A DNA stretch of 48,070 nucleotides, taken from contig JAWBSH010000011.1 in the NCBI GenBank assembly GCA_038843015.1, forward strand, positions 1-48,070. The letters are read 5' to 3'. Made by a program: the position numbers and the translations under genes. Shown one piece after another: positions 25,846 through 40,598 of this stretch (positions are counted from its first letter, which is position 1; each line of letters starts with the position of its first letter). The notes under the pieces are model-generated. The model saw nothing but the letters and a program-made list of their open reading frames with translations. It was not told the DNA's origin and did not search any database. The stretch comes from Zestosphaera sp. (lineage in GTDB: Archaea > Thermoproteota > Thermoprotei_A > Sulfolobales > NBVN01).

Positions 25846-26148
25846 TTGAGTCGAGACCAGGTTATAGGGTACTTACTTCTCGCGGCTTCCGCAGTAGTGA
25901 TAGTAGTTTATGGGTGGTTAGTTTTCGCGACTGAGTACGCGTTGTTGATACTGAAACTAACAGGCTTCATAGCAGTAGCAGGAGTTTTCGGTATTCTTGC
26001 TTGGATTGGCTACACACTAGCTACGACACCTCCCCCCAAACCCATAGAAGAGATTGAGAAAGAGATAGAAGCTGAGCTAAAGAAATTAGAGAGTGAGGTT
26101 ACTGAGAAGGGAGTAACTAGCACAGAGAGATCTGAAGAGAAGTCTTGA
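25846..26148 (+). CDS. Small two-helix membrane protein
   Basis: 100 residues, not recognised. Two hydrophobic helices (about 6-30 and 33-60) are followed by a proline break (TTPPPKP) and a charged helix rich in Glu and Lys (IEEIEKEIEAELKKLESEV) that may form a coiled coil in the cytoplasm. The TTG start is supported by GAGGTG 5 nt upstream. Similar short membrane proteins with a charged tail occur in other Crenarchaeota, but no function is known. It stands alone between glutamine synthetase and a convergent glycosyltransferase. Confidence 0.7.
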   Translation: MSRDQVIGYLLLAASAVVIVVYGWLVFATEYALLILKLTGFIAVAGVFGILAWIGYTLATTPPPKPIEEIEKEIEAELKKLESEVTEKGVTSTERSEEKS

Positions 26149-26195: not shown

Positions 26196-27146
26196 TTAGA
26201 GCTTCTTAAGCGTCTCTCTTAATTCATCGAGACAAACTTTTATCTCGTTGATCTTGTGTATTGTCCTCATTTCTATTCTTTTGGTGTAGATGGACATTAT
26301 CGCCATTAACAGTGACTGGAAGCCTGCTAGCGTGAGTAGTATTGCTACTAACCCCTTAAGGTAGTAGTTAATTCCCGTAAAGAAGTAATGGTAGGCAACG
26401 TAAGCTCCTAAAGTAATGCCTGGTAGTAGGAGGACGGCACCTAACAGGAATATCAGATAACTAGGGTTATACCTCCAAGTTAACCTAATTAAGTCCCAAG
26501 TTATTTTAAATCCGTGTGATATCCCTAGTTTTTTAATTCCTTTTCTCTTCCTATACTCGATGGGGACCTCAGACACTCTGCCTGTCATGTTAGCGACGTG
26601 AGAGAATATCTCGACTTCTATGCTGAAATTTTTCGCTTCATAGAAAATTTCTTTCAAGATGTTTGACCTGACTACGTACATGCCTGTCAAGACGTCAGAG
26701 ACTCTTGTGCCGTAAAGAATGTTGACAAATCTCGTTATAATCTTGTTCCCGAACCTGAAGATAGGGTTCATAGCGCCTTTCTCAACGTATTTTCTGTAAC
26801 CCAAGACTAGGTCGTAGCCTTCACGGATCTTGTTGAGTAGGTCGGGCACGCGCGTAGCTGGGTATGTGTAGTCGCCGTCCATTATTAAGGTGTAGGTTGT
26901 TTTAACGAACTTAGAACCGGTTTTGATAGCGTCTGCCTTACCAAAACCCTCCTGTAAGACTACCCTGACACCTTTGCTCTCAGCTATTTCACGTGTTCCA
27001 TCATCGCTAAAACCATCAACTACTAGTATCTTATCTGGTGGAATACCTATTGAGAGTAACTCATCTAGTACCAGACCTATGCCCTCAGCTTCCTTAAGAG
27101 TTGGTATGATTATTGTTAAGTCATCGTACGTAGTCTCATACACCAA
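26196..27146 (-). CDS. Membrane-anchored GT2 glycosyltransferase (dolichol-phosphate sugar synthase type)
   Basis: 316 residues. N-terminal GT-A fold with LTIIIPTLKEAEGIGLVLDE, ILVVDGFSDDGTRE and the metal-binding DGDYTYP (DxD motif), then LTGMYVVRSN and VPIEYRKRKG. Two to three hydrophobic segments follow (about 220-245 and 255-280). This layout is that of dolichyl-phosphate mannose/glucose synthases, which charge the polyprenol carrier used by GT-C enzymes. It is divergent from the surface operon at 27190, which contains a GT-C-like protein, so it may supply its donor. TTG/GTG start near a TATA element at about 27 nt, so probably leaderless. Confidence 0.88.
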   Translation of the reverse strand: MVYETTYDDLTIIIPTLKEAEGIGLVLDELLSIGIPPDKILVVDGFSDDGTREIAESKGVRVVLQEGFGKADAIKTGSKFVKTTYTLIMDGDYTYPATRVPDLLNKIREGYDLVLGYRKYVEKGAMNPIFRFGNKIITRFVNILYGTRVSDVLTGMYVVRSNILKEIFYEAKNFSIEVEIFSHVANMTGRVSEVPIEYRKRKGIKKLGISHGFKITWDLIRLTWRYNPSYLIFLLGAVLLLPGITLGAYVAYHYFFTGINYYLKGLVAILLTLAGFQSLLMAIMSIYTKRIEMRTIHKINEIKVCLDELRETLKKL

Positions 27147-27189
27147 AAATAATAATAATGAATTCCAGTAATAAATTTAGGTAGTGTGG

Positions 27190-27468
27190 ATGCTCTCCTC
27201 AAGAGTTTTGTTGTTATTGACTCTACTCACTCTCATTTTATTACTGGGTTTTATCTCGTCATCAGTTATAGCGGTACGTGAGGACTCCTACAAGAAATTT
27301 CTGAACGTATATAGTGGAACCGTGAATTTAGTGTTAAGGAGTATTGACGTGAGTCAGTACGTCACGTCCTTAAATGAGGCTCAGCAACTCCTTAAATTGA
27401 GTGTGTTTTGGGAAGTCGTAGAGTTAATGAGCAGGGTCAAGTCTGGCTTAAGTCTCGAGCAAGGATGA
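27190..27468 (+). CDS. Small membrane-anchored protein, first gene of the surface operon
   Basis: 92 residues, not recognised. One N-terminal hydrophobic helix (LLLLTLLTLILLLGFISSSV) followed by about 65 mainly helical residues, predicted outside. The frame opens at GTG 27184, but ATG 27190 is 6 nt after AGGTAG. Its stop is 4 nt before the next gene, so it is translated with the two permeases. Its size and position fit an accessory or adaptor subunit of the ABC system, which is inference. Confidence 0.6.
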   Translation: MLSSRVLLLLTLLTLILLLGFISSSVIAVREDSYKKFLNVYSGTVNLVLRSIDVSQYVTSLNEAQQLLKLSVFWEVVELMSRVKSGLSLEQG

Positions 27469-27472
27469 GATC

Positions 27473-28453
27473 ATGAAGAGGTGGCACGAGCTTACTGTCT
27501 TACTATATTCTCTTTTTAGAAAGAGGCTAGCCATGATTGTTTTGCTAGCTATATTACCACCAACACTCATTCTCATCTCATTTTCACTCTCTATTAACGT
27601 TATCGAGACGTATTCAGAGAGATTACTAGAATACGCTAGCAATACTGCAATAACTATTAGTGAAAAAACAGATTCACTAAGTTGTTGTCTCTCGATAAGG
27701 TACGGCCTAATGACTATAGTCTCACGTGACGCCTCGCTACGAGCACAGGTTATCATGGTAGATGATGTAGTGAAGTTGAAGAACCTTACAAACATTAATT
27801 TGAGAATTGCTGGGAGTGGTTGCGAGCATGTGAGGGTTTCTGTAAGTCCTGTATTGATTGAAGTACTGAATATCTCTCTAGGAGAACCTATTAAAGTATG
27901 TGCTGATAATGAGTGTTTCGTTGCTTGCGTAGCGTATTATCACGATAAGAGGCTAAAAAACTACTTAATAATTGAAGGCATAAACGAAAGCACGAGACTC
28001 AACGAAGGTTTCTTATGTGTACGTGACGCAAGAGAAGTCGACAAATCTCTCATAAGGTCTCTAATTAATGAGCTAACAGAGTTTTCTAAAAATTTTGTCT
28101 TGATAGTGCTCTCGACTTACGTGCCCGTACTTTACTTAGCAGACGTTAAACTACTTGAGGAATTAAGTAAAGAGTTGAAAATCCTGAGTACTCAGGGCGT
28201 GAGCGTATCTGACTTGCGCTTAGTCTTCGCATTGTCTACTTCGTTAATTACTGGGCTCGTAACCATATACTCTACTGCGTTAGGCTATCTAGTAGTAAGT
28301 GCTGGAGTTGCTATACTAAGAGTTTTCGGTAACCAAATAATACCTACGCCAGAACTGCGTGTAGAGCACGTCACACTAGCGATTATCGCTACTCTCTTAA
28401 ACTTTCTGATAAGTTACTTAGTTTTCAGAGGTGGTCGCCGTGTTATTAGCTAG
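27473..28453 (+). CDS. FtsX-like permease subunit 1 of a MacB-type ABC system
   Basis: 326 residues. Topology fits type VII ABC permeases: one N-terminal helix (about 20-42), a large external domain with several cysteines (SLSCCLS, GSGCEHV, KVCADNECFVACV), then three C-terminal helices. The stretch KELKILSTQGVSVSDLRLVF just before the second helix is the FtsX/MacB coupling motif. Such subunits do not pass substrates through the membrane but transmit ATP-driven motion to the outside. ATG with GGATGAG upstream. The external domain matches nothing recognised. It pairs with the permease at 28440 and the ATPase at 31057. Confidence 0.72.
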   Translation: MKRWHELTVLLYSLFRKRLAMIVLLAILPPTLILISFSLSINVIETYSERLLEYASNTAITISEKTDSLSCCLSIRYGLMTIVSRDASLRAQVIMVDDVVKLKNLTNINLRIAGSGCEHVRVSVSPVLIEVLNISLGEPIKVCADNECFVACVAYYHDKRLKNYLIIEGINESTRLNEGFLCVRDAREVDKSLIRSLINELTEFSKNFVLIVLSTYVPVLYLADVKLLEELSKELKILSTQGVSVSDLRLVFALSTSLITGLVTIYSTALGYLVVSAGVAILRVFGNQIIPTPELRVEHVTLAIIATLLNFLISYLVFRGGRRVIS

Positions 28454-29567
28454 TTTTAAAACTACTGTTAAGTCTCTCTCGCTAATCACTCACTTGAGTC
28501 TTGTGGTCTTGCTAGCTCTACTAGCGTTAGTTTCTTTGAGTATCTTAGGTCTTTTTACATCTTTGTATAATTTCTACGATAACCTGCTCTTAATCAACGG
28601 TGACGGCTTAGTTATCTCCAGTTACGCTGTGTCGCCATTAACTTCCGTAGTTAGTGAGAAATACGTCAAGGACTTAATAAGTGGTGTTGAGGGGGTTAAG
28701 GTAGAGCCTCTAGTATTTTCTCTCGTGCACGTCAAAAACAAGATAGTAGTCGTTAGAGGAGTTGAAAAGACAGTATTTTCTAGTTTTTATCATGGCTTAG
28801 AAGACAGTGCTTACTGTGTTCTCGTGGGTGAGGGTTTGGCTAAGGAATTAAATCTTAGTGAAGGAGATACACTCGTGTTATACTCGCCTTTTGTTAAAGA
28901 GCCTGTCATCGCATCTGTTTGTAGTGTTAAGTACTTACCCTCACTCCTAAACTACGAGATTATAGCAGATATTGAGTTTTCTAGAACTATTAGAGGGTTA
29001 GGTAGTGATTATTACTCAGTCGTGATTTTGCGGGCAGATAACTTAAGTGTCTTAAGCGGTATAAGCATGAAGATGGGTCTTAGTTCTGAGGACATAACAC
29101 TTCTTAGAAAGGCTTTGTTAGTCTTATCGCAGCAAGGTGGTGTCTTAGCTTACGAGTTACGTAGCGAGATTCCTGAAGTATACGTAGCTAAGCTAGGTAT
29201 ACACAAAGACCTAATCTTCACACTATCTTACACTGTCGCGGCTTTAGTAATAATTAGTGACTTGCTTATCGGCGAGCATATCTTTAGGTTGGTTAGAGGG
29301 TGTATTGAGATACTTAGATTTTTGGGAGTTTCTAAGAAGAGAATCTTCATTACTCTGGTTATACAGACTCTCGCTTACGTCGCGGCGGCAGTCTTTATCG
29401 CTATCACGTTACTTCACTGTCTTAGTAGTTTGATTAGGTTAGAAGTACTTAGTCATTATGTGGGTCCGCAGATATCCTTCTCACGCGATTCTTTGTTTGT
29501 GTTCTCTTCTAAGACTTTCTTGTTGCTTGCAGGTATCTTGTGGGGGTTCGTGAGGTATGAAAAGTAA
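28440..29567 (+). CDS. FtsX-like permease subunit 2 of a MacB-type ABC system
   Basis: About 375 residues. An N-terminal helix (LITHLSLVVLLALLALVSLS), an external MacB-like periplasmic core domain (LVGEGLAKELNLSEGDTLVL, a typical segment), then three helices. RGCIEILRFLGVSKKRIFIT is the family coupling helix. The frame opens at GTG 28431, but GTG 28440 is 6 nt after AGGTG. It overlaps the preceding permease by 14 nt and the following gene by 11 nt. The substrate could be a lipid, lipid-linked sugar or surface protein. Confidence 0.78.
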   Translation: MLLASFKTTVKSLSLITHLSLVVLLALLALVSLSILGLFTSLYNFYDNLLLINGDGLVISSYAVSPLTSVVSEKYVKDLISGVEGVKVEPLVFSLVHVKNKIVVVRGVEKTVFSSFYHGLEDSAYCVLVGEGLAKELNLSEGDTLVLYSPFVKEPVIASVCSVKYLPSLLNYEIIADIEFSRTIRGLGSDYYSVVILRADNLSVLSGISMKMGLSSEDITLLRKALLVLSQQGGVLAYELRSEIPEVYVAKLGIHKDLIFTLSYTVAALVIISDLLIGEHIFRLVRGCIEILRFLGVSKKRIFITLVIQTLAYVAAAVFIAITLLHCLSSLIRLEVLSHYVGPQISFSRDSLFVFSSKTFLLLAGILWGFVRYEK

Positions 29568-31050
29568 ATTTCTGTTTGCGACTATTCTAGTCGCGCTCTT
29601 GATTAGGCTAATCCCAACCTTAACGACTAATCAGCCTTTCTCAACAGATACTTGGCCTCTAATAAGGCTAAGTAGGGTTCTTCTAGCAAATCCTGAGTAT
29701 AAGATATGGGACGACTCCCTACTAGGTGGGTACCATAATAGGTGGCCTGCAGTAATTCTTGAGAGTACTTTGTTCGCCACACTCACTGGCTTAGAGCCGG
29801 CTTACTTCTTCAGATTTGTGGGAGTCATCATTACTCAAACTTCTATGTTAGTCACTACTTACGCCTTAATCAGGAGGTATAGGGGGGCCTGCACTGCTCT
29901 ACTGAGTACCTTAACTCTCACTTCTCTACCCTCGCTAGTTATTTTTACATCAACTACACTGAAGGAGGTTTACGCTTACCCCCTAGCCTTACTGTATGTT
30001 CTGACAATTACTGAGGGTTCTTTAAACACTTTAGTATTGACTCTTTTAATAGCAATCTCGTTAGTAGCTTCACACCCGCTGACTCCTCTGATGATGATTG
30101 CATTCTTAAGTAGCTACTTATTCGTGTCGTGGGTAAAGCGTTTAGAAAATCCGTTTTACTCAGCGGATTTCAGGAAATACTTGCTTGCGTTTTTGTTACT
30201 TAGCATTACCTACACTATTTACACAGCGTTTTACGGGTGGGAAGGACTAATATTTAAGTTTGGTTTAAGGGATTTCACGGCTTTGTTCATTGTAGGAGTT
30301 GCAGTGTATGGTTGGTATGTGTTAGTGGGGAGAGATTTTATTAAATCTTTACTGATTCTTATTCCGGGAATCACGACAATCTTGGCGTCGAACTATAGGT
30401 TTCTAGAGTCTTCCCTCATGCTACTATATGTGGTCCCCTTCATAGTTCTGCTCCTCTTCTATATGTGGGGGAGAAGTGGTGAGAGTGGTGAGGCCGTAGT
30501 AGCGCCTATACTCCTCCCTATATTAGTAGGGGTTCAATACGTCGTTATAGTGTCGCCACTTCTTATGGTTATATTGCATAGACTACTCAACTACTTATTT
30601 TTTGCTGTAGTCGCGATTACAGCATCTCTAAACATACGTCACGAGAGAACTAGGAGGTACGCAGTAGCTGCACTCACCATCTCTTTAGTTATCACGGCGT
30701 TAATATTAGCTAACTTAACGTTCTACGGCGACTCGCTCGCCCATTACTGGAGGTATGGAGATCGTGAAGTAATTGGAGTAAGTAACTTAGTTAAGTACGT
30801 GAGTAGCGAGAAAGTATGTGGTGACGTTAAGATAAAGTACTTAATCAATGATGTTGTTTCGGTAGACCTCCTCTGCGGTCTCAGACTTCACGAGAGTGAT
30901 TCCGGGTACCCCACTATACTCTACTCTGATAATTTCAGGTTTGGCTATGTTTTATCCCCTGTTGACACCCACTCACTTCGAGAGTTAAGTACTCTCAATT
31001 CTATTAAGAACGTTATTTACAGCAACGGAGTCATTTACGTGATGAGGTGA
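29557..31050 (+). CDS. Polytopic membrane protein, GT-C glycosyltransferase-like
   Basis: 497 residues with about 11-12 hydrophobic helices and a C-terminal soluble domain of about 85 residues. After the first helix comes a loop with acidic and aromatic residues (QPFSTDTWPLIRLSRVLL, KIWDDSLLGGYHNRW). In GT-C enzymes (STT3/AglB, PMT, ArnT) the catalytic Asp and carrier-binding residues lie in exactly this first external loop. No exact family could be named. It sits inside an ABC exporter operon between the second permease and the ATPase, which is unusual and suggests joint action on a lipid-linked sugar or surface glycan. Confidence 0.6.
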   Translation: MKSKFLFATILVALLIRLIPTLTTNQPFSTDTWPLIRLSRVLLANPEYKIWDDSLLGGYHNRWPAVILESTLFATLTGLEPAYFFRFVGVIITQTSMLVTTYALIRRYRGACTALLSTLTLTSLPSLVIFTSTTLKEVYAYPLALLYVLTITEGSLNTLVLTLLIAISLVASHPLTPLMMIAFLSSYLFVSWVKRLENPFYSADFRKYLLAFLLLSITYTIYTAFYGWEGLIFKFGLRDFTALFIVGVAVYGWYVLVGRDFIKSLLILIPGITTILASNYRFLESSLMLLYVVPFIVLLLFYMWGRSGESGEAVVAPILLPILVGVQYVVIVSPLLMVILHRLLNYLFFAVVAITASLNIRHERTRRYAVAALTISLVITALILANLTFYGDSLAHYWRYGDREVIGVSNLVKYVSSEKVCGDVKIKYLINDVVSVDLLCGLRLHESDSGYPTILYSDNFRFGYVLSPVDTHSLRELSTLNSIKNVIYSNGVIYVMR

Positions 31051-31056
31051 TATTAA

Positions 31057-31716
31057 TTGGACTTACTGCTTGAGTTGAGAGATGTTAGTAAAGTAGTAGG
31101 TAATGAGTTTGTTCTGGCAGGCGTATCTCTTAGTTTGAGACGTGGTGAAGTTTTAGTAGTTAGGGGGAGGAGTGGTGTCGGCAAAACAACGTTAGCTAAG
31201 ATAGCGTCATTACTGCTAACGCCTGATAAAGGCTTCGTGAAATTCATGAGTAACGACTTAAGTAACTCAAGTGATAATCTTAAGTCACTTCTAAGACTTA
31301 AGTACATCGGTTACGTCGACCAAGAGTACGCTCTCCTACCAAGACTTACTGTCTACGAAAACGTTGAATTACCTCTAGCCTTACTCGGGACCCCGAAAAT
31401 AGAGAGACGAGGTAGAGTTAATGAAGTTCTTAATCAAGTTGGTTTAGGAGGGCTAGAGAATAGGTATCCTGCTGAGTTAAGTGGCGGTGAGAGACAGAGG
31501 GTAGCTATAGCTAGAGCATTAGTCAAGAAACCTAGGCTACTAGTTGCTGACGAGCCATTCTCAAACCTAGACGAGATTACTACGTCTAATATAGTACGTC
31601 TATTTAAGACTCTAGTTTCAGAGACAGAAGCCGCGATACTAATAACCACTACAGACCTAAATACTGATTACGGAATAGGTACTAGTAAGTTCTTAATACA
31701 TGGTAAACTCATTTAA
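31057..31716 (+). CDS. ABC ATPase (LolD/MacB type) lacking the switch histidine
   Basis: 219 residues. Walker A GRSGVGKTT (37-45), Q-loop glutamine Q89 in GYVDQEY, signature LSGGERQR (141-148), Walker B LLVADEP with E166 and D-loop SNLD are present. The switch loop, normally THD, reads TTD (residues 198-200), so the usual histidine is T199. This could slow hydrolysis or change coupling. TTG follows GGTG by 7 nt; the gap to the previous gene is 6 nt. It is the ATPase partner of the two FtsX-like permeases. Confidence 0.88.
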   Translation: MDLLLELRDVSKVVGNEFVLAGVSLSLRRGEVLVVRGRSGVGKTTLAKIASLLLTPDKGFVKFMSNDLSNSSDNLKSLLRLKYIGYVDQEYALLPRLTVYENVELPLALLGTPKIERRGRVNEVLNQVGLGGLENRYPAELSGGERQRVAIARALVKKPRLLVADEPFSNLDEITTSNIVRLFKTLVSETEAAILITTTDLNTDYGIGTSKFLIHGKLI

Positions 31717-32055: not shown

Positions 32056-32841
32056 ATACTTGCACGAAGCTCTAAGGACGCTAGACCTAAGATAATAGCT
32101 TTCATACTAACGTATAAGGAGAAACCATTAAGAGTCTTATCATGTCTAGCTTTTCAGACTATGAAGCCAGATAAGGTGGTAATTGTTGCTGCGATGAAGG
32201 AAGCTTGCTTAAGTGATTATGTGAACTTAGGACCAATAGACTGCCTAGTAGTAAAGCCAGACACCTCACTATCCGTTGGCGAGAGGGTTGGGATCGCTCT
32301 CACGGTAGCTTTAAGAAGGTACGCTGTAGGTAACTATGACTACTTCCTCAAACTAGACGATGACGTTATGTTCGGTCCTAAATTCGTAGAAACTAACGTT
32401 AGAAGCCATTACGACTTGATGGGACGTGGCGCGGCTATGGTGATCAACGCCAGGAAATATGTTCAGTTATTTAACCATAAGTGGCCCGTGTGTCCGGCTG
32501 ACGACACCTACGTCATCTACAGGTCAGTCGCGAGTGGTCTTAGAGTGCTTGAGTGGAGGTGGGTTGAGAAAGCTTTTCTGCTTAAGGAACCCGCATATAG
32601 TGCGCGTAGACGTTTTCTGTTAGGAGTAGAACTATATAAGTTCGGAGTACCGCTTGCTTACGTGGTCCTCAGCTCGTTGAAGAGCGTAGTTAAGAGCGGG
32701 GTTCTCTCTCATTTAATTACTGTTTATGGTTATGTAGTAGCGCTAATTGTTAGGAGAACTAAGTATGAGTTTAGCGACTTTGTGCGAGACTATCATAAGA
32801 AGAAGCTAACATACAAGGTCCTAGAATTTATTCGCAAGTAA
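32056..32841 (+). CDS. GT2-type glycosyltransferase, apparent ATA start
   Basis: From the first ATG (32161) the protein would lack its first strand. Reading upstream in frame gives KIIAFILTYKEKPLRVLSCL, the classic N-terminus of a GT2 domain, so the gene starts further up. No ATG, GTG or TTG exists between the in-frame TGA at 32047 and 32161. An ATA at 32056 lies exactly 7 nt after GGTG (GGTGAGGACTA-ATA), giving 261 residues. The metal-binding motif is FLKLDDDVMFG. The C-terminal part has one or two amphipathic or membrane-seeking helices (GVPLAYVVLSSLKS, VYGYVVALIV). It lies between the ABC operon and the S-layer pair and probably adds sugars to envelope glycans. Confidence 0.7.
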   Translation: MLARSSKDARPKIIAFILTYKEKPLRVLSCLAFQTMKPDKVVIVAAMKEACLSDYVNLGPIDCLVVKPDTSLSVGERVGIALTVALRRYAVGNYDYFLKLDDDVMFGPKFVETNVRSHYDLMGRGAAMVINARKYVQLFNHKWPVCPADDTYVIYRSVASGLRVLEWRWVEKAFLLKEPAYSARRRFLLGVELYKFGVPLAYVVLSSLKSVVKSGVLSHLITVYGYVVALIVRRTKYEFSDFVRDYHKKKLTYKVLEFIRK

Positions 32842-32915: not shown

Positions 32916-35900
32916 TTGAAAAGAGTCTTAACCCTAAGACTCGTATCTATACTCGTGGTTGTCTTGATACTAGCTCCAGTAGCTTCAGTAGTCACGCAAT
33001 CAACTGCTTCAAGCTCCTTAAGTAATTCAGGCTCTTCAAGCGAGTTAGCTTATGTTAGTCCCGCACTATACGATAGTAACTTCTGGAAATATGGTGCGTA
33101 TGTTGAGGACCAAGCCTACTTATCATTCGAGAATCCGATAGATGAGGACGCGGGGTTCAGCGTAATCAATAATGTTGAGGTAGGAAGGGTCATAGTAGTT
33201 CTTGAGAAAACCATGACTCCTACGAGCTTAAGAGGTAAGGTAAGAGGTTTGTTAGGGATTCTTCCAACACACTTGTATAACGTGGTCTTTGCCCTAATAT
33301 CAAAGAGTGATTTAGAGGAACTCGCTAGCACTAAGGGGGTCCTAGCAATACTACCCGATATAAGGATTGACGCGCTCATAAACAAAGAAATGGAGTCTCT
33401 TAAGGATGTGGAGGGAGCTATCCAGGAACTAAATAACGTCTACCAAGCTGCCGCGGAGGGTAGCTACCACTATACACTCAACATAACTAGGTCTATAGAT
33501 GTGTGGTTAAACTACAACATTATGGGCGAAGACGTAAAGCTAGCTATAATTGACACAGGAGTTGATTACGGGTCACCCGGGTTAGGGCTGGACGCAATAG
33601 CTAGAGACGAATACGGATACCCACTAATATTTGACGCTAGCAGTCTAGGACTAGTTTTAACGCCTGTTGAGGCCGTGGATACCGAAGATGGTTATATATA
33701 CGTAGACCCCAGCCAACTATACGTATTCCAGCCACCCTACTACGTGTGGAAGTGGACTGACCAGCTGTATGTTAGAGTATCTGGTTGTAGGCCTTCTCCT
33801 CCTTATACTTATACTGCCTGGGTTCCGTTCCCAGAAGACAATAAGTGGTATGTTGGGAACATACCTAGGTACGGCGTCACTAAATTCGGCTTGTTATTCC
33901 AGTACATGACTGCAAGTGTTGGCGGTACCTCAACGACGATCTGGTATACTATCCCGATAATATTAGTTGACAGTGATGGGGATGGATTCTACGACACTTT
34001 ATACGCTGACACGTCTACAGCACTTTACTTACTAGGAGTGGCTTTATCCCCATCGCCCTGTAGCGTCACTATACCTGGTGTTCCAACATCACCAGATTTC
34101 TCGTTTGCTGATGAGGTGCCAGCATATTACGGTAATGAGGTCATAGCTAAAGACCTTAACGGTGATAACATCACTGATTACTCTGTCGGAACGCTGGCAG
34201 GGTATGTGTACGACGCAGCCTTCACGATATTACTTAAGAAGATTGGGTGGTTAGACGCGAATGTACTGCCTCTGGACCCACTGTATGGTTATCAAACCAC
34301 TAGCGTAGTGAACTTATATGATGTGTGGGAGTATGAGCCAGTGTCAATGATATGGCCGGGTCTAGACCCCTACGGAGATTACGTTGTTATAGAGTATGAC
34401 TATAATAGTCACGGTACCTTCTGTGCTAACACTGCTGCCGGGAGAGACTACTACGCTCAGACAGGATATGGAGTTAGAAGCATTGCAGGACAAGCACCAA
34501 AAACAAAGATAGCGGTTGCACCCGCCTTATATTACGGTACTGTGGCTACCTCAATATACTTCTTCAGCGGGTTTGATCTAGTAACGCCGTACGGTGATGG
34601 TTCTGTTTATGTGTGGCCGACACTACTTACTAACCCGTGGATAGCTTTTGAGGGCTGGAACTGGAGTTGGAATTACTTTGGTGAACATCAAGTAGACATA
34701 ACGAGCAACTCATACGGCGTTAGTGGGTGGGCGCTTTGGGGCTGGGCTTCGGGTATGGATCCCTCTAGCGCAATATTTGACTACACCACCTTGAGGTCAG
34801 GGACTGCCCACTTCGTCGCTGTAGGTAATGGTGGTCCTGGATGGGGCACTATAGCGTCACCCGCTTCTTCAACGCTAGCTATTGGTGTGGGCGCTGCTAC
34901 AGAGTTTACCTACAGACCACTTTACGGTTATTACTGGCCTGGCTCTAGTAGGCAGGTCGTAAGCTGGAGTAACAGAGGTCCTACTGAGTTAGGCGTGACC
35001 AAACCAGACGTAGTAGCCGTTGGCGCTTTCGCGTGGAGCATAGGGAGAACGTGGGAGGCACTAGGTTCAAGAACACTAAATGGTGTTTTAGTGCATGGGC
35101 TATTTAGTGGCACTAGCCAAGCTACTCCGATGGCTGCTGGAGTAGGCGCTTTAGTCGTGTCAGCTTATAAGAGTCTGGGAGGCTCCAGGATGCCGCCCTA
35201 CCTACTCAAGACTGTGTTGATGAATACTGCTCAAGACATGGGATTTGACGAACTATCTCAAGGTGCTGGATTCGTAGACGCGTATAAGGCTGTCACAGCC
35301 GTCATAGATCCAAACTTCCCGAAAGTATATTCTCCAAACATCTTGAGCGACTTAATCTCAGAGATGGGTGAAACTCACAAGTCCTTCACTTACGGAGGAG
35401 CACTTGATGGCGTTTGGTACGAACCTAAGATATTCGTGCCTTCAGTTAAGTCAGGCTCCAGAGTTATGAGACAGTTAATAATCGAGGGCACAGGTAGTTA
35501 TAAGATTTACCCGGTCAGACTACAGAGTGTCGGTTCTGTAGGGCTATGCGATATCACTTTAAGAATTATCGAGCCAGCAACGATAACCTCCTGTACTGGT
35601 GAAGACATATCGTTTAATGTTGATGCAGCAACACGTTACGGACACTTAGTCATAGATATGGAGGCTCTCAAGCAGTACGACTTCTTCGAGATTGAAGTAG
35701 TGTTCCCGTTTGAGTATTTCGAGAGTGGTGGTAGGACAGGAGCCTATAACGTAAGGATACCGACTACAGTTTTAGAGCTTGCTTACTGGATTGACGTGGG
35801 AGGAGATAATGTCTTCTCATGGTCCGAGACTGCCAGGATGTATTACGACATCAGGAGAGCTAATGCTGTGAGGATTCAAGCAGGTGATTTAGAGAGGCAG

Positions 35901-37145
35901 ATCGAGGAGATAGAGAATCTAGTTATGGCTTATATGGGTGTTAACCCAACCCAACTCCCGAGGTACCTTGTCGTAAGAGTTGGTGTGTCGGGCGCTACCT
36001 TCAGAGGTAGCCTGCCAATTAAGGCTAGAGTCGTAGGTTATAAGTATGTCTCATGGAGTGACGTGACAGTCATACCTTCAAGGTTTACTAGTTCGGGTTC
36101 TGTAAGAGCTAACGTCATCGTTAGGGGTCCTGCGAGACCAGGATTCTACAGTGGTTACATAGTTGTTGAAGAAACTACACGTAGTCATAAGTCTTTAGTG
36201 CCTGTCTCGTTCTTTGTGCCAATAGAGCTCAGAACACCGTCTAGGTATGTGTTATCTCCTTACACCGAAACGAGACAATACAGGAACACGTACCTCAGAG
36301 GCGCCTTCGACTACACTTGGAGGTATGAGTCGGGTGACTGGAGGGTCTTCAAGGTTTACATACCACCTACGTTTAAGAGTTTATGGGCTCTAGGACTTAA
36401 GGTCACGTGGCCTACGCACGACAAGCCAGCATACGCTAGCAACTTAGACGTGCACTTATATGGTCCATACACGTACTACATGGTTGAGGAGGAAACAAAC
36501 CTTGTGCGTCAGTATAAAGTGTCTGGGGCTCAGTTAGCAGCTGAGCTCAGCAGAGACCCAAGTGGAGGTGGTAGCTACAACCCAACAAGATTCTGGGACT
36601 CTGTAGGTCCTGGCGAATCACTAATTATATCTCCAATAATGTCTACAGGCACTTACAGAGTAGTTATCAGGAATATTCAGTTTAGTGGTATGAGTTATGA
36701 AGAACCCTTCACTCTAGAGTTGATACCGATGACTCTCAGCGTTAAGTATAGCTATACAGCATCGACGAGAACTGGAGTAGCTGAAGTAACCATAACTGGG
36801 GTGAGTGAGTTATTCCCTGCGGGAGTCGCTGTAGTCGGTGACGGGATAGTCAGACCGTTAAGCGAGAGTATGTATTATTACATCTCAAATCTTACGGAAT
36901 ATGGAATAACCATGACGATTAGCTCGCCCGTAATTAGTGACAACACCTATAAATTCAACGTAACTATGAGTTTCTCGCCTGGCGTGAGTAGAGGACACTA
37001 TATTATACCCTTAGACGCTACTATGTCATTCCCAGTAACTACTGTAGGTTGGATCAGTGCAGGCACTCCTACAGTATACTTCAGTTGGTATGAAGTACCT
37101 GTATACCTGAAATTTACTTTAAGCTATAACAGAATAATAGGGTAA
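32916..37145 (+). CDS. Giant secreted subtilase, STABLE protease/pyrolysin-like
   Basis: 1409 residues with a signal peptide (about 1-27). A propeptide precedes the S8 domain. Catalytic residues are D213 (AIIDTGVDYG), H499 (NSHGTFCAN), oxyanion N638 (VAVGNGGPG) and S734 (FSGTSQATPMAAG). The Asp-His interval holds about 285 extra residues, as in pyrolysin and the STABLE protease, and includes two calcium-loop-like motifs (DSDGDGFYD at 352-360, DLNGDNITD at 413-421). About 650 beta-rich residues follow, without a C-terminal membrane helix. In Staphylothermus, STABLE is bound to the tetrabrachion stalk; the next gene here encodes a comparable stalk. TTG follows GAGGTG by 5 nt, with a TATA box at about 32873-32882. 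Confidence 0.93.
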   Translation: MKRVLTLRLVSILVVVLILAPVASVVTQSTASSSLSNSGSSSELAYVSPALYDSNFWKYGAYVEDQAYLSFENPIDEDAGFSVINNVEVGRVIVVLEKTMTPTSLRGKVRGLLGILPTHLYNVVFALISKSDLEELASTKGVLAILPDIRIDALINKEMESLKDVEGAIQELNNVYQAAAEGSYHYTLNITRSIDVWLNYNIMGEDVKLAIIDTGVDYGSPGLGLDAIARDEYGYPLIFDASSLGLVLTPVEAVDTEDGYIYVDPSQLYVFQPPYYVWKWTDQLYVRVSGCRPSPPYTYTAWVPFPEDNKWYVGNIPRYGVTKFGLLFQYMTASVGGTSTTIWYTIPIILVDSDGDGFYDTLYADTSTALYLLGVALSPSPCSVTIPGVPTSPDFSFADEVPAYYGNEVIAKDLNGDNITDYSVGTLAGYVYDAAFTILLKKIGWLDANVLPLDPLYGYQTTSVVNLYDVWEYEPVSMIWPGLDPYGDYVVIEYDYNSHGTFCANTAAGRDYYAQTGYGVRSIAGQAPKTKIAVAPALYYGTVATSIYFFSGFDLVTPYGDGSVYVWPTLLTNPWIAFEGWNWSWNYFGEHQVDITSNSYGVSGWALWGWASGMDPSSAIFDYTTLRSGTAHFVAVGNGGPGWGTIASPASSTLAIGVGAATEFTYRPLYGYYWPGSSRQVVSWSNRGPTELGVTKPDVVAVGAFAWSIGRTWEALGSRTLNGVLVHGLFSGTSQATPMAAGVGALVVSAYKSLGGSRMPPYLLKTVLMNTAQDMGFDELSQGAGFVDAYKAVTAVIDPNFPKVYSPNILSDLISEMGETHKSFTYGGALDGVWYEPKIFVPSVKSGSRVMRQLIIEGTGSYKIYPVRLQSVGSVGLCDITLRIIEPATITSCTGEDISFNVDAATRYGHLVIDMEALKQYDFFEIEVVFPFEYFESGGRTGAYNVRIPTTVLELAYWIDVGGDNVFSWSETARMYYDIRRANAVRIQAGDLERQIEEIENLVMAYMGVNPTQLPRYLVVRVGVSGATFRGSLPIKARVVGYKYVSWSDVTVIPSRFTSSGSVRANVIVRGPARPGFYSGYIVVEETTRSHKSLVPVSFFVPIELRTPSRYVLSPYTETRQYRNTYLRGAFDYTWRYESGDWRVFKVYIPPTFKSLWALGLKVTWPTHDKPAYASNLDVHLYGPYTYYMVEEETNLVRQYKVSGAQLAAELSRDPSGGGSYNPTRFWDSVGPGESLIISPIMSTGTYRVVIRNIQFSGMSYEEPFTLELIPMTLSVKYSYTASTRTGVAEVTITGVSELFPAGVAVVGDGIVRPLSESMYYYISNLTEYGITMTISSPVISDNTYKFNVTMSFSPGVSRGHYIIPLDATMSFPVTTVGWISAGTPTVYFSWYEVPVYLKFTLSYNRIIG

Positions 37146-37202
37146 TTTTAAATCTATAAAGCTTTTTTATTTTTGTTCATATAATTATTTGTGGTGTGTC
37201 TC

Positions 37203-40200
37203 ATGAATAAGATAAAGTCTCTAGCCTTACTTATGACTTTAATTATATCACTACCACAATTAGGTGTCTTAGTATACGCTCAGGTAATTCCTGAATTGTA
37301 CGTTAGTCCTAGTAGTGGGTACGGGATAGATGAAGAGCCTGTGATTGTTAGTGGGTGTTACTTTAGGCCTAACTCCTTAATAAGCAAGATAAGCCTGTAT
37401 AACACAGTCACGGGGCAGACATACGAATTCTTAGTGAATGAGCCTACAGACGAGTCAGGCTGTTTTGGCCCCATAGACCTGAAAACGTATTTAATGACTA
37501 ACATGAGTTACGGCACGTACTACGTGATAGTCTATGAGACGCCGGTTGAGCAACCAGAACCTTTCGTGGTAACTGATACTGTAGCATTCAACGAGTCCAG
37601 CTCGTTAATTGTAGACGCGTCAGTTCTTGGGACACCAGCAACTATAACAGCAGAATTCTATGTGGAGGGGTTCTTCGGCTTTAACGGCCACACTTACGCG
37701 TATTCTAGTGACGTCACCACCACCATAGGAGTTTTATTTACTGGGGAAGACGAAAAGGCTTACAGACTTAATGCGTGGAGAGTTGATGTCACTCGAGTGG
37801 ATAGTCCTGTTATGTTCCAGCTAATTGATATGGAAACGAATTCTGTAGTTTTCAGTGAAGAAGTTGTTCCTGAAGAAGTGGATGGGGTGTTCGTAGCTAC
37901 ACTTACCTTCGATTTAGGCGGTAGGTTAAGAGAAGACTTACCTAATAATATGGCCTTATTTACTAGTGCTGAAGACTTCATAAGACTCGACCTATATTAT
38001 GGTGGTAGACACGTGGAGGTTCTGTATGCGTTGCTCAGTATAACGTACTACAATGAAGAGACAGATACTTACTGGGAATACCTCTATGAGTATCCAGGCA
38101 ATCTGTTAGTAGATCCGGAGACAGGTATAGTGTATGTTGAGCAGTATTTAGGTATAGACGCAGACATAGAGTGGTCCTCAATATTCGAGTGGGATGCTAT
38201 AAGTGAGGACGTAATCTTCGTAGTTTACGCAACCTATCTGAGTAGAACCCTCTACTTCTTGGAAGACCTATATACGGTTACCCCACTCCTTTACATTAAC
38301 GACATGCCTGCAGAGAACGGGGAAACATATGATTTCGGTGTATTGACTGCAGGACATACATTCGAACTAACTATCTACGGTTCTGCACCATACTCGCCCG
38401 TCACCGTAATAGTTGACGGCACCTTAACCTTATATAACGGCTTAACAGGAAAAGACGGTAACTCGTCATTCACGATTCAAGTCCCGTACCTAATGCCCGG
38501 CGAAGAACATCTAATAACTATTGAGTTTCAGTATGATACTAACGTATACAGAGTCTACGTAATCTATACTCAGTATTGGTACGCGTATTACCAGATACTC
38601 AATCCAGTCACGGGCGAGTACTTGCCCGTAAATAAGGCTTCAGCATCTTATTATAATGAAACATTAATAGCGTATCTTGACGGCGAGCCTTTTGACTATT
38701 TAGGAGACGTTATTGAAGTATATGCTGAGGGCTTGTTACCAGGCGCTGACGTAGTTCTTAAACTTGACGGATACTCAGATTTCGGTGTATGTTCTGGGAG
38801 AGCTAGTGAGAACGGAGTGTTAAGCCTGGTCTGCACTATACCATCAGTGCCGAGAGATAACTATGTTGTTAAGCTTGCAGTAACTGATGACATAGAAGTA
38901 AGTATACCTTGGTTTGACGGCTCAGAATATGTTTACGAGCCACTGGAGATTTACCCGAAGATACTGGTACTCAGGGTAAGCTCTGATGAAATTCCGGTAG
39001 TAGTTGGTAACACCGTGGTCAGAGTAGTTGGTACAGGTTTCCCCGCCTACCTCAGTGGCTTCTTAGTATTGCTTAACGGGACAGACGCGCTAGTTTCAGT
39101 AAACCTGCACACGGGGATTTGGTGGGGAACTAACAAGTACGGCATACTCGTTAATGTCTTGGGAGCTACTCCAGGTCTCACAATACCAGTTCTAGAACCA
39201 GGAGTTTATGAGTTAAGGTTGGCAGGAAATGATGTAGTATCAGAGCCTGGTTATGTCTTTATAGTGAATGAGTTAAACAATGTAGCTACTAAGGAGGATA
39301 TAAACAACCTCATAAGTAATACTACCGACTTAGTGAATGGGTTGAGGGAAGATATATATAATGTTAGGGACAGCCTCGCTACACAGTTAGCAGGTATTGA
39401 GGCGCAGTTGATGAGTATTGAAACGTCTCTAGCTAGCGTTCAAGACATACTTACCTCAATATATTCTGAGATGGTCACCAAGGAAGATTTAATGACAGCC
39501 TTAAATACTGTCTTGTCAGAGATAAACTCTTCTAAGATGGAGTTGCTGACTACATTGCTAGAACAGTTCTCGTTAATTTCCAGCAGTATTGATGGTCTCT
39601 ACGTAAGACTTGACGAGATTGAGGCAGTAATTTATGATGTGTCAGACAATATTATCAATGAGTTACTGATACTTCAGGAAGGACTTAATGAAACACTACA
39701 AAAACTGGATATCATACTAGAGGATATGGTGACAATGGAGGACTTAGCTGCCGTCTACGAAGGACTCTCAACCCTGATAGAGTCTGTTCATGACTCGATA
39801 ATTACCAGAGTAAACGAGCTTGAGTCAAACATTATTAACAGGATAGGTGAAGCCGAGAGTAACCTAATTGCTGGCATGGAGACTTTGAGAAGTGACGTGT
39901 TAGAAGCGATATCAGGAGTTAATTACACGATAGTTTCAAAGATAGAGTCTGTTCATGACTCGATAATTAGCAGAGTAAACGAGCTTGAGTCAAGTCTGAC
40001 TAATGAAATGAGCCTGTTACGTGGTGAGATCTCGTCGAGTACTGCGGAACTCGCTGGACTAGTAAATGAGTCTACTAGCATGGTTATGAATAAGCTTAAT
40101 GAGTTAACTACTAAAAACGACTTACTGAATGCTGTTGAAGACTTGAGTACTAGGATTGACGGGGTAGAATCTAATATTCTTGATAAGGTGGACTCGTTAG

Positions 40201-40598
40201 GCAACATGTTGCTGGACGTTAATACTACGTTATCAGAGTCTATTTCCGTAGTAGAGAGCAGGATAGTTAGTGTTGAAGATAAGATTACAGAGCTTGAGAA
40301 ATCTGTTAGTGAGTTAAGTGAGATTATTTCAGGTATTGGAGTGGATTTAGCCGGCGTTAACGAGAACTTAAGCAGTAAGATTGACGAGCTTGAGAGTAGC
40401 ATCTCAGAGAAAATAACTCAAGCTAAGAATGAGGTTAAGACAAGTTTTAGCGATAGCTTAGCCATTGTTGAAGAGAGAGTTGAAGGTGCTACGGGAGTAG
40501 CTAGCAACGCGTTCATGTTTAGTTTGCTGTCGGCAGTCTTCGCCATTATCGCTACAGTAGTAGCTATAGTGATACTCGTTCAGCTCAGGAGATTTTAA
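37203..40598 (+). CDS. Tetrabrachion-like S-layer protein with hendecad coiled-coil stalk
   Basis: 1131 residues. Signal peptide (about 1-24), then about 660 residues of acidic, beta-rich repeats of immunoglobulin-like character (PVIVSGCYFRPNS, VVRVVGTGFPAYL). From about residue 690 to 1100 it is alpha-helical with 11-residue periodicity, for example IESVHDSIITR, VNELESNIINR, IGEAESNLIAG, METLRSDVLEA, with hydrophobics at positions 1, 4 and 8. The C-terminus is a membrane helix plus basic end (VILVQLRRF). This is the plan of tetrabrachion: beta-rich arms, a right-handed coiled-coil stalk and a membrane anchor. Hendecads favour a right-handed, four-stranded coil. At 0.15 nm per residue the stalk would be about 60 nm. 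ATG 37203 is 6 nt after GGTG; the frame opens at 37191. Confidence 0.88.
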   Translation: MNKIKSLALLMTLIISLPQLGVLVYAQVIPELYVSPSSGYGIDEEPVIVSGCYFRPNSLISKISLYNTVTGQTYEFLVNEPTDESGCFGPIDLKTYLMTNMSYGTYYVIVYETPVEQPEPFVVTDTVAFNESSSLIVDASVLGTPATITAEFYVEGFFGFNGHTYAYSSDVTTTIGVLFTGEDEKAYRLNAWRVDVTRVDSPVMFQLIDMETNSVVFSEEVVPEEVDGVFVATLTFDLGGRLREDLPNNMALFTSAEDFIRLDLYYGGRHVEVLYALLSITYYNEETDTYWEYLYEYPGNLLVDPETGIVYVEQYLGIDADIEWSSIFEWDAISEDVIFVVYATYLSRTLYFLEDLYTVTPLLYINDMPAENGETYDFGVLTAGHTFELTIYGSAPYSPVTVIVDGTLTLYNGLTGKDGNSSFTIQVPYLMPGEEHLITIEFQYDTNVYRVYVIYTQYWYAYYQILNPVTGEYLPVNKASASYYNETLIAYLDGEPFDYLGDVIEVYAEGLLPGADVVLKLDGYSDFGVCSGRASENGVLSLVCTIPSVPRDNYVVKLAVTDDIEVSIPWFDGSEYVYEPLEIYPKILVLRVSSDEIPVVVGNTVVRVVGTGFPAYLSGFLVLLNGTDALVSVNLHTGIWWGTNKYGILVNVLGATPGLTIPVLEPGVYELRLAGNDVVSEPGYVFIVNELNNVATKEDINNLISNTTDLVNGLREDIYNVRDSLATQLAGIEAQLMSIETSLASVQDILTSIYSEMVTKEDLMTALNTVLSEINSSKMELLTTLLEQFSLISSSIDGLYVRLDEIEAVIYDVSDNIINELLILQEGLNETLQKLDIILEDMVTMEDLAAVYEGLSTLIESVHDSIITRVNELESNIINRIGEAESNLIAGMETLRSDVLEAISGVNYTIVSKIESVHDSIISRVNELESSLTNEMSLLRGEISSSTAELAGLVNESTSMVMNKLNELTTKNDLLNAVEDLSTRIDGVESNILDKVDSLGNMLLDVNTTLSESISVVESRIVSVEDKITELEKSVSELSEIISGIGVDLAGVNENLSSKIDELESSISEKITQAKNEVKTSFSDSLAIVEERVEGATGVASNAFMFSLLSAVFAIIATVVAIVILVQLRRF
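39776..39993 (+). repeat. Internal near-identical repeat in the coiled coil
   Basis: A 53-bp unit at 39776-39828 recurs at 39941-39993 with one mismatch. The copies are 165 bp apart, exactly 55 codons or five hendecads, so the repeat keeps the coiled-coil register. It encodes IESVHDSII(T/S)RVNELES. Nucleotide identity beyond what codon usage requires implies a recent duplication or gene conversion in the stalk. Confidence 0.85.

Follow-up and report, generated by a model that had tools for sequence, protein, structure and literature searches.

The 48,070-nucleotide window analysed here, contig C11, comes from an assembly of the hot-spring archaeon Zestosphaera sp. (20 contigs, 95.9% complete). 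It carries a cassette of two ATP-binding cassette (ABC) permeases, PERM1 and PERM2, their ATPase and a membrane protein of the glycosyltransferase C (GT-C) fold. The four-gene set PERM1-PERM2-GT-C-ATPase is conserved across Thermoproteota. Its main association is with a predicted archaeal surface machine of MoxR, DUF58, DUF4350 and DUF1616 proteins, here also with an archaeosortase. We tentatively propose, with rather less than even confidence, a transferase using a polyprenyl-phosphate sugar on a membrane-anchored surface acceptor that is handled by the Type VII (mechanotransmission) ABC motor.

A preliminary description, made from the window sequence, had noted five overlapping or nearly abutting genes. 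This observation is confirmed by the open reading frames, all on the plus strand: the first two are 4 bases apart, the next two junctions overlap by 23 and 11 bases, and 6 bases separate the last two. Its interpretation is partly supported overall. Below, G000 denotes the own genome and other G numbers the other genomes, with C for the own-genome contigs and L for the loci. The features are the following.

27184..27468, plus strand: probable remnant of the small anchored protein SA, 94 residues (SA profile match 1e-10)
27473..28453, plus strand: PERM1, LolE/MacB-type (Type VII) ABC permease, 326 residues (profile against the PDB, predicted fold)
28431..29567, plus strand: PERM2, LolC/LolE-type (Type VII) ABC permease, 378 residues (profile against the PDB)
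29557..31050, plus strand: membrane protein of GT-C glycosyltransferase fold, 497 residues (AlphaFold2 (AF2) model, Foldseek)
29647..29649, plus strand: D31 codon, candidate catalytic base in external loop 1 of the GT-C protein (conservation, AglB alignment)
29962..29967, plus strand: K136-E137 codons, about where AglB has its second acidic (metal) motif (conservation)
31057..31716, plus strand: ABC ATPase, FtsE/LolD-like, 219 residues (PF00005 1.1e-33)
31651..31653, plus strand: T199 codon of the ATPase, H-loop position (alignment of cassette ATPases)
26196..27146, minus strand: GT2 enzyme, AglJ-like polyprenyl-phosphate sugar synthase, divergent (PF00535 4.1e-20)

The cassette is not a chance arrangement, since its gene order recurs in deep relatives and the PERM2 and GT-C genes co-occur. 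Among 79 genomes of relatives, the own one included, the GT-C gene is found in 22 and PERM2 in 17. All 17 PERM2 genomes also hold the GT-C gene and none has PERM2 alone (Fisher p = 3e-13 over the 79 genomes, phylogeny ignored). In a phylum-wide sample, 65 of 398 genomes match the GT-C profile, although the weakest of these probably include other GT-C proteins. All the genomes searched are of Thermoproteota.

Of the 56 loci whose GT-C proteins were placed in a tree, 33 keep the exact permease-permease-GT-C-ATPase order; several of the rest run into a contig end or carry the ATPase gene inverted close by. Lack of conservation had been named in advance as a ground for dropping the idea, and the genome-neighbourhood search instead finds the cluster conserved in relatives. 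The module is accessory, as its distribution is patchy and G004, of the same genus and 99% complete, is without it. The relatives are mostly draft genomes and absences among them are soft; the G074 contig, for instance, stops shortly after a trio of small genes (SA-SB-SC, below) and the start of a permease. A decayed cassette is also seen at L053 (G011), where the GT-C gene is fragmented, the ATPase is short and no permease was found.

The 497-residue protein has no Pfam or NCBIfam match but is a GT-C enzyme by its predicted fold. The AF2 model, built on a 48-sequence alignment of relatives, has a predicted local distance difference test score (pLDDT) of 89.5 and a predicted template modelling score (pTM) of 0.91. 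In the Foldseek search of the PDB, the top 23 matches are without exception GT-C enzymes or complexes containing one, at a probability of 1.00 before a drop to 0.21. They include human, yeast, bacterial and archaeal oligosaccharyltransferases (STT3/AglB/PglB), ALG12, ALG9, ArnT, AftA and AftB. The GT-C-like nature read earlier from the sequence thus agrees with the predicted fold, and the same 23 matches rule out a clear transporter fold, the other ground named in advance for dropping the idea.

Conserved residues among the 48 family sequences are D31 (47/48), K136 (45/48), E137 (47/48), H173 (47/48), R342 (44/48) and D423 (44/48). D31 is the conserved acidic residue of the first external loop, and the protein shares this first-loop Asp and the GT-C fold with AglB/STT3. 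Weak though it is (E 0.015), the best PDB sequence match of the family profile, to A. fulgidus AglB, pairs D31 with D47, a metal-binding active-site residue of that enzyme. The closest named record is a GT-C protein of an 'uncultured Sulfolobales archaeon', 72% identical, and a scan of the genome contigs with a narrower alignment gave 10 named loci.

The second acidic metal-binding motif was not found in the family alignment. At about its place in AglB, near residue 161, stands the almost invariant Lys-Glu pair, K136-E137. GT-C enzymes using polyprenyl-monophosphate sugars are generally metal-independent. From these two points we infer that the donor would be a dolichol-phosphate sugar, a monophosphate, and not a pyrophosphate-linked oligosaccharide.

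The GT-C protein is not the oligosaccharyltransferase, because it lacks the WWDYG motif, having no WWD in its sequence, and because the true AglB lies elsewhere in the genome (G000:C5:122497-124614, E 4e-186 with a relative's AglB as the query). Further unlike AglB/STT3, it has no large globular C-terminal domain, this part being only about 95 residues in the model, and Lys-Glu replaces the second acidic motif. A null PF02516 search had raised the idea that the GT-C enzyme replaces a missing AglB, which is ruled out by the gene on C5. PF02516 (Pfam STT3) is insensitive in this clade and misses the own-genome AglB, so AglB absences called from it are unsafe.

Both permeases are LolC/LolE/MacB-like and of Type VII. 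PERM1 has no Pfam match, and its profile matches YbbP (4.5e-11) and LolE (1.7e-8), and also LolF and LolC, in the PDB. Its model (pLDDT 87.2) is matched by Foldseek to MacB, LolCDE, YbbAP, HrtBA, BceAB and FtsEX. In Pfam, PERM2 resembles FtsX only weakly (PF02687 4.2e-4, under the cut-off), and its profile matches YbbP (2.8e-7), LolE (4.3e-7) and LolC (1.7e-6). YbbP is the top PDB sequence match for both.

The permease class of FtsX/MacB/LolC, with an extracytoplasmic domain after the first transmembrane (TM) segment, is therefore assigned to PERM1 by fold and profile and to PERM2 by profile, which upholds the earlier reading of two FtsX-like permeases in a MacB-type ABC operon. The ATPase matches FtsE at 3.1e-48 and LolD at 9.1e-48, both below the equivalog cut-offs. 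The cassette is like LolCDE in its sequence and fold similarity and in its heteromeric C/E-like permease pair with one ATPase. It is unlike LolCDE in that a GT-C gene lies inside the operon and neither an outer membrane nor a counterpart of LolA was identified.

The small anchored protein at the head of the operon had been listed among its five genes, but it looks truncated, and a working subunit here is not supported. Full-length SA (133-149 residues) has a signal/TM segment, a helical region and a C-terminal TM segment, where TM counts are from hydropathy except in the modelled GT-C protein and PERM1. The 94-residue window protein matches the first two thirds of this family and misses the C-terminal TM segment, which probably makes it the remnant of a larger partner.

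In relatives, SA is followed by SB (about 165 residues), matching the Ig-like part of DUF1616, and then by SC (about 190 residues), matching its membrane part. Both are absent in the window between the 94-residue copy and PERM1. An intact SA paralogue lies on the own contig C13 (L169:269-685), where SB is cut by the contig end. SA and SB are fused in one protein at L045, L047, L096, L099, L100 and L121, so the trio can be two genes.

The association with the surface machine is not visible from the window alone and was unmentioned in the preliminary description. Own contig C13 (L169:1-9245) holds an archaeosortase (PF09721 5.7e-13), MoxR, three small membrane proteins, a 588-residue secreted protein, DUF4350 and DUF58, followed by SA/SB. 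In the congener G002, a single one-strand run of 15 genes over 14.3 kb has the order SA-SB-SC-PERM1-PERM2-GT-C-ATPase-archaeosortase-MoxR-221-235-84-595-DUF4350-DUF58. A GT2 gene is divergent at its head, in the same position as in the window. The archaeosortase adjoins the cassette in G002, G018 and G440.

SA/SB-type genes lie at most 7 kb from the GT-C gene at 19 of 59 loci, MoxR at 18, DUF4350 at 15 and DUF58 at 10. These neighbours are on either side of the GT-C gene and occur in many families. By chance, a single-copy gene of a 1.5-Mb genome is expected so near at about 1% per locus. DUF1616 and the GT-C gene co-occur with p = 3.6e-6, or 5.9e-4 in genomes at least 90% complete, phylogeny ignored. 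Moreover, the membrane domain of DUF1616 is fused to the GT-C N-terminus at L108, L109 and L117, where the match exceeds the Pfam cut-off, and at L056, where it falls just short. All the fused proteins belong to a single subclade of the GT-C tree, so the fusions are not counted as independent events.

Makarova, Galperin and Koonin (2015; PMC5898192) proposed a putative arCOG01314-associated archaeal secretion system from the DUF4350, MoxR, vWA and DUF1616 families. The genes beside the cassette are like that system in the MoxR AAA ATPase, DUF4350, DUF1616 (pfam07760) and small membrane proteins. Type VII ABC permeases, an ABC ATPase, a GT-C enzyme and an archaeosortase are not in Table 2 of that paper. 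The two permeases, the ATPase and the GT-C enzyme of the cassette, with the archaeosortase, add five candidate components to a predicted machine that has so far been described by comparative genomics, and its role in surface-protein maturation becomes directly testable. In the DUF1616 literature, HVO_2173 is an N-glycosylated protein.

The divergent gene at 26196-27146 had been taken for a dolichol-phosphate sugar synthase. Its product is indeed AglJ-like (TIGR04182 8.6e-59, below the cut-off), and such a GT2 gene lies within 7 kb of the GT-C gene at 17 of the 59 loci. It is likely the donor maker. In multi-component transmembrane glycosylation systems, a GT-A enzyme, a GtrA/Wzx flippase and a GT-C enzyme work together (PMC8035078). 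The cassette is like them in having a GT2 polyprenyl-phosphate-sugar synthase beside a GT-C transferase, and unlike them in that an ABC motor is present and no flippase was recognised among the scanned neighbouring genes.

In the mechanism that we tentatively favour, the neighbouring GT2 enzyme would load a sugar onto dolichol phosphate, and the loaded carrier would be flipped across the membrane. Outside, the GT-C enzyme, with D31 as the base, would move the sugar onto a membrane-anchored acceptor, which PERM1 and PERM2, driven by the ATPase, would extract or present. The module's partners in the maturation of surface proteins with a lipid or membrane anchor would be the DUF1616 trio, MoxR/DUF58/DUF4350 and, for this genus, the archaeosortase. 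The folds, the conserved gene set, its linkage, the fusion, the co-occurrence and the residue conservation are computed; the donor, the acceptor, the direction of force, the physical complex and the coupling we infer.

What favours this mechanism is the GT-C fold with near-invariant D31, K136 and E137, the Type VII permeases and the recurrent exact order, together with the AglJ-like GT2 neighbours, the G002 run and the DUF1616 fusion and co-occurrence. A precedent is YbbAP-TesA, an E. coli Type VII ABC system with an external lipid hydrolase (PMC12646458). Both have a Type VII permease with a dedicated outer-face enzyme. The cassette differs in having a GT-C membrane protein in place of a soluble hydrolase, two short permeases in place of one long one, and an ATPase without the H-loop His.

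Type VII ABC motors have hydrolases, lipoprotein carriers and efflux partners as known partners. A conserved glycosyltransferase would be a new partner class for them.

Several observations weigh against the proposed mechanism. The flipping step has no candidate nearby, as no GtrA/Wzx flippase was recognised in the scanned neighbouring genes of the window, the rest of the genome not having been searched. In the own genome, the MoxR/DUF4350/DUF58/DUF1616 set on C13 is on a separate contig from the cassette on C11. DUF1616 is detected in 18 of the 22 GT-C genomes and the archaeosortase in only 8. GT-C genes without adjacent permeases are present at L048, L055, L104 and L120, and the state of the ATPase H-loop also counts here.

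ABC ATPases carry a switch histidine at the H-loop position. Among 41 aligned cassette ATPases, Walker A, the Q-loop, the signature and Walker B are kept in nearly all, whereas the H-loop His is missing in 39, and the window ATPase has T199 there. The count is taken from the alignment, as a regular expression over-calls His in four cassettes by stray SH/TH pairs. The two exceptions, L118 and L119, have a rearranged locus. At the variant loci L118, L119 and L125, where the ATPase and a permease are on the opposite strand or the GT-C gene is upstream of the permeases, the ATPases retain the His. Other ABC ATPases encoded at the cassette loci also keep it. Absence of the His may weaken ATP hydrolysis, and a pump is then not favoured. 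This near-invariant loss poses a sharp biochemical question.

It also speaks for an FtsEX-like control, in which no substrate is moved and ATP binding or slow hydrolysis alters the outer domains. The GT-C enzyme or the DUF1616 trio would then be switched on and off, for example in time with growth of the envelope. FtsEX is indeed among the structural matches of PERM1. However, both permeases match YbbP, LolE and LolC best and not FtsX, and they are two different proteins as in LolCDE. We regard such control as unlikely, though worth keeping in mind.

An exporter of the MacB/Lol type and a separate surface glycosyltransferase might instead merely share an operon, both serving the envelope without mechanical coupling. 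The four loci with GT-C genes but no adjacent permeases fit this co-transcription. It is made improbable by the GT-C gene in every PERM2 genome and by its keeping between PERM2 and the ATPase, with overlapping reading frames, over deep branches.

We give only a slim chance to an archaeal counterpart of glycosylphosphatidylinositol (GPI) anchor assembly. There, the GT-C enzyme would use dolichol-phosphate sugars to build a glycan on a lipid anchor, to which the archaeosortase would join surface proteins, and the Type VII ABC motor would extract or hand on the glycolipid-anchored protein, all in one complex with DUF1616, MoxR and DUF58. A non-catalytic lipid- or glycan-binding scaffold of GT-C fold, presenting a lipid-linked substrate to the motor, would suit the remoteness from known enzymes (no Pfam match for the window protein, PMT_2 in only 4/48 family members) and the Lys-Glu in place of the AglB motif, but is very improbable with the candidate active-site D31, K136 and E137 almost invariant over deep divergence.

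Other genes flank the cassette. A 100-residue membrane protein is encoded at 25846-26148 and has relatives within 7 kb of the GT-C gene at 7 loci, including those of G002 and G440. At 32161-32841 is a glycosyltransferase-like gene of 226 residues, with homologues immediately upstream of the cassette at L056 and L059. The 'S-layer pair' at 32916-40598 consists of a 1409-residue S8 subtilase (PF00082 2.4e-31), followed by a 1135-residue protein in which a long coiled coil is combined with a C-terminal TM segment. This pair recalls the STABLE protease/tetrabrachion pair of Staphylothermus or SlaB of Sulfolobus.

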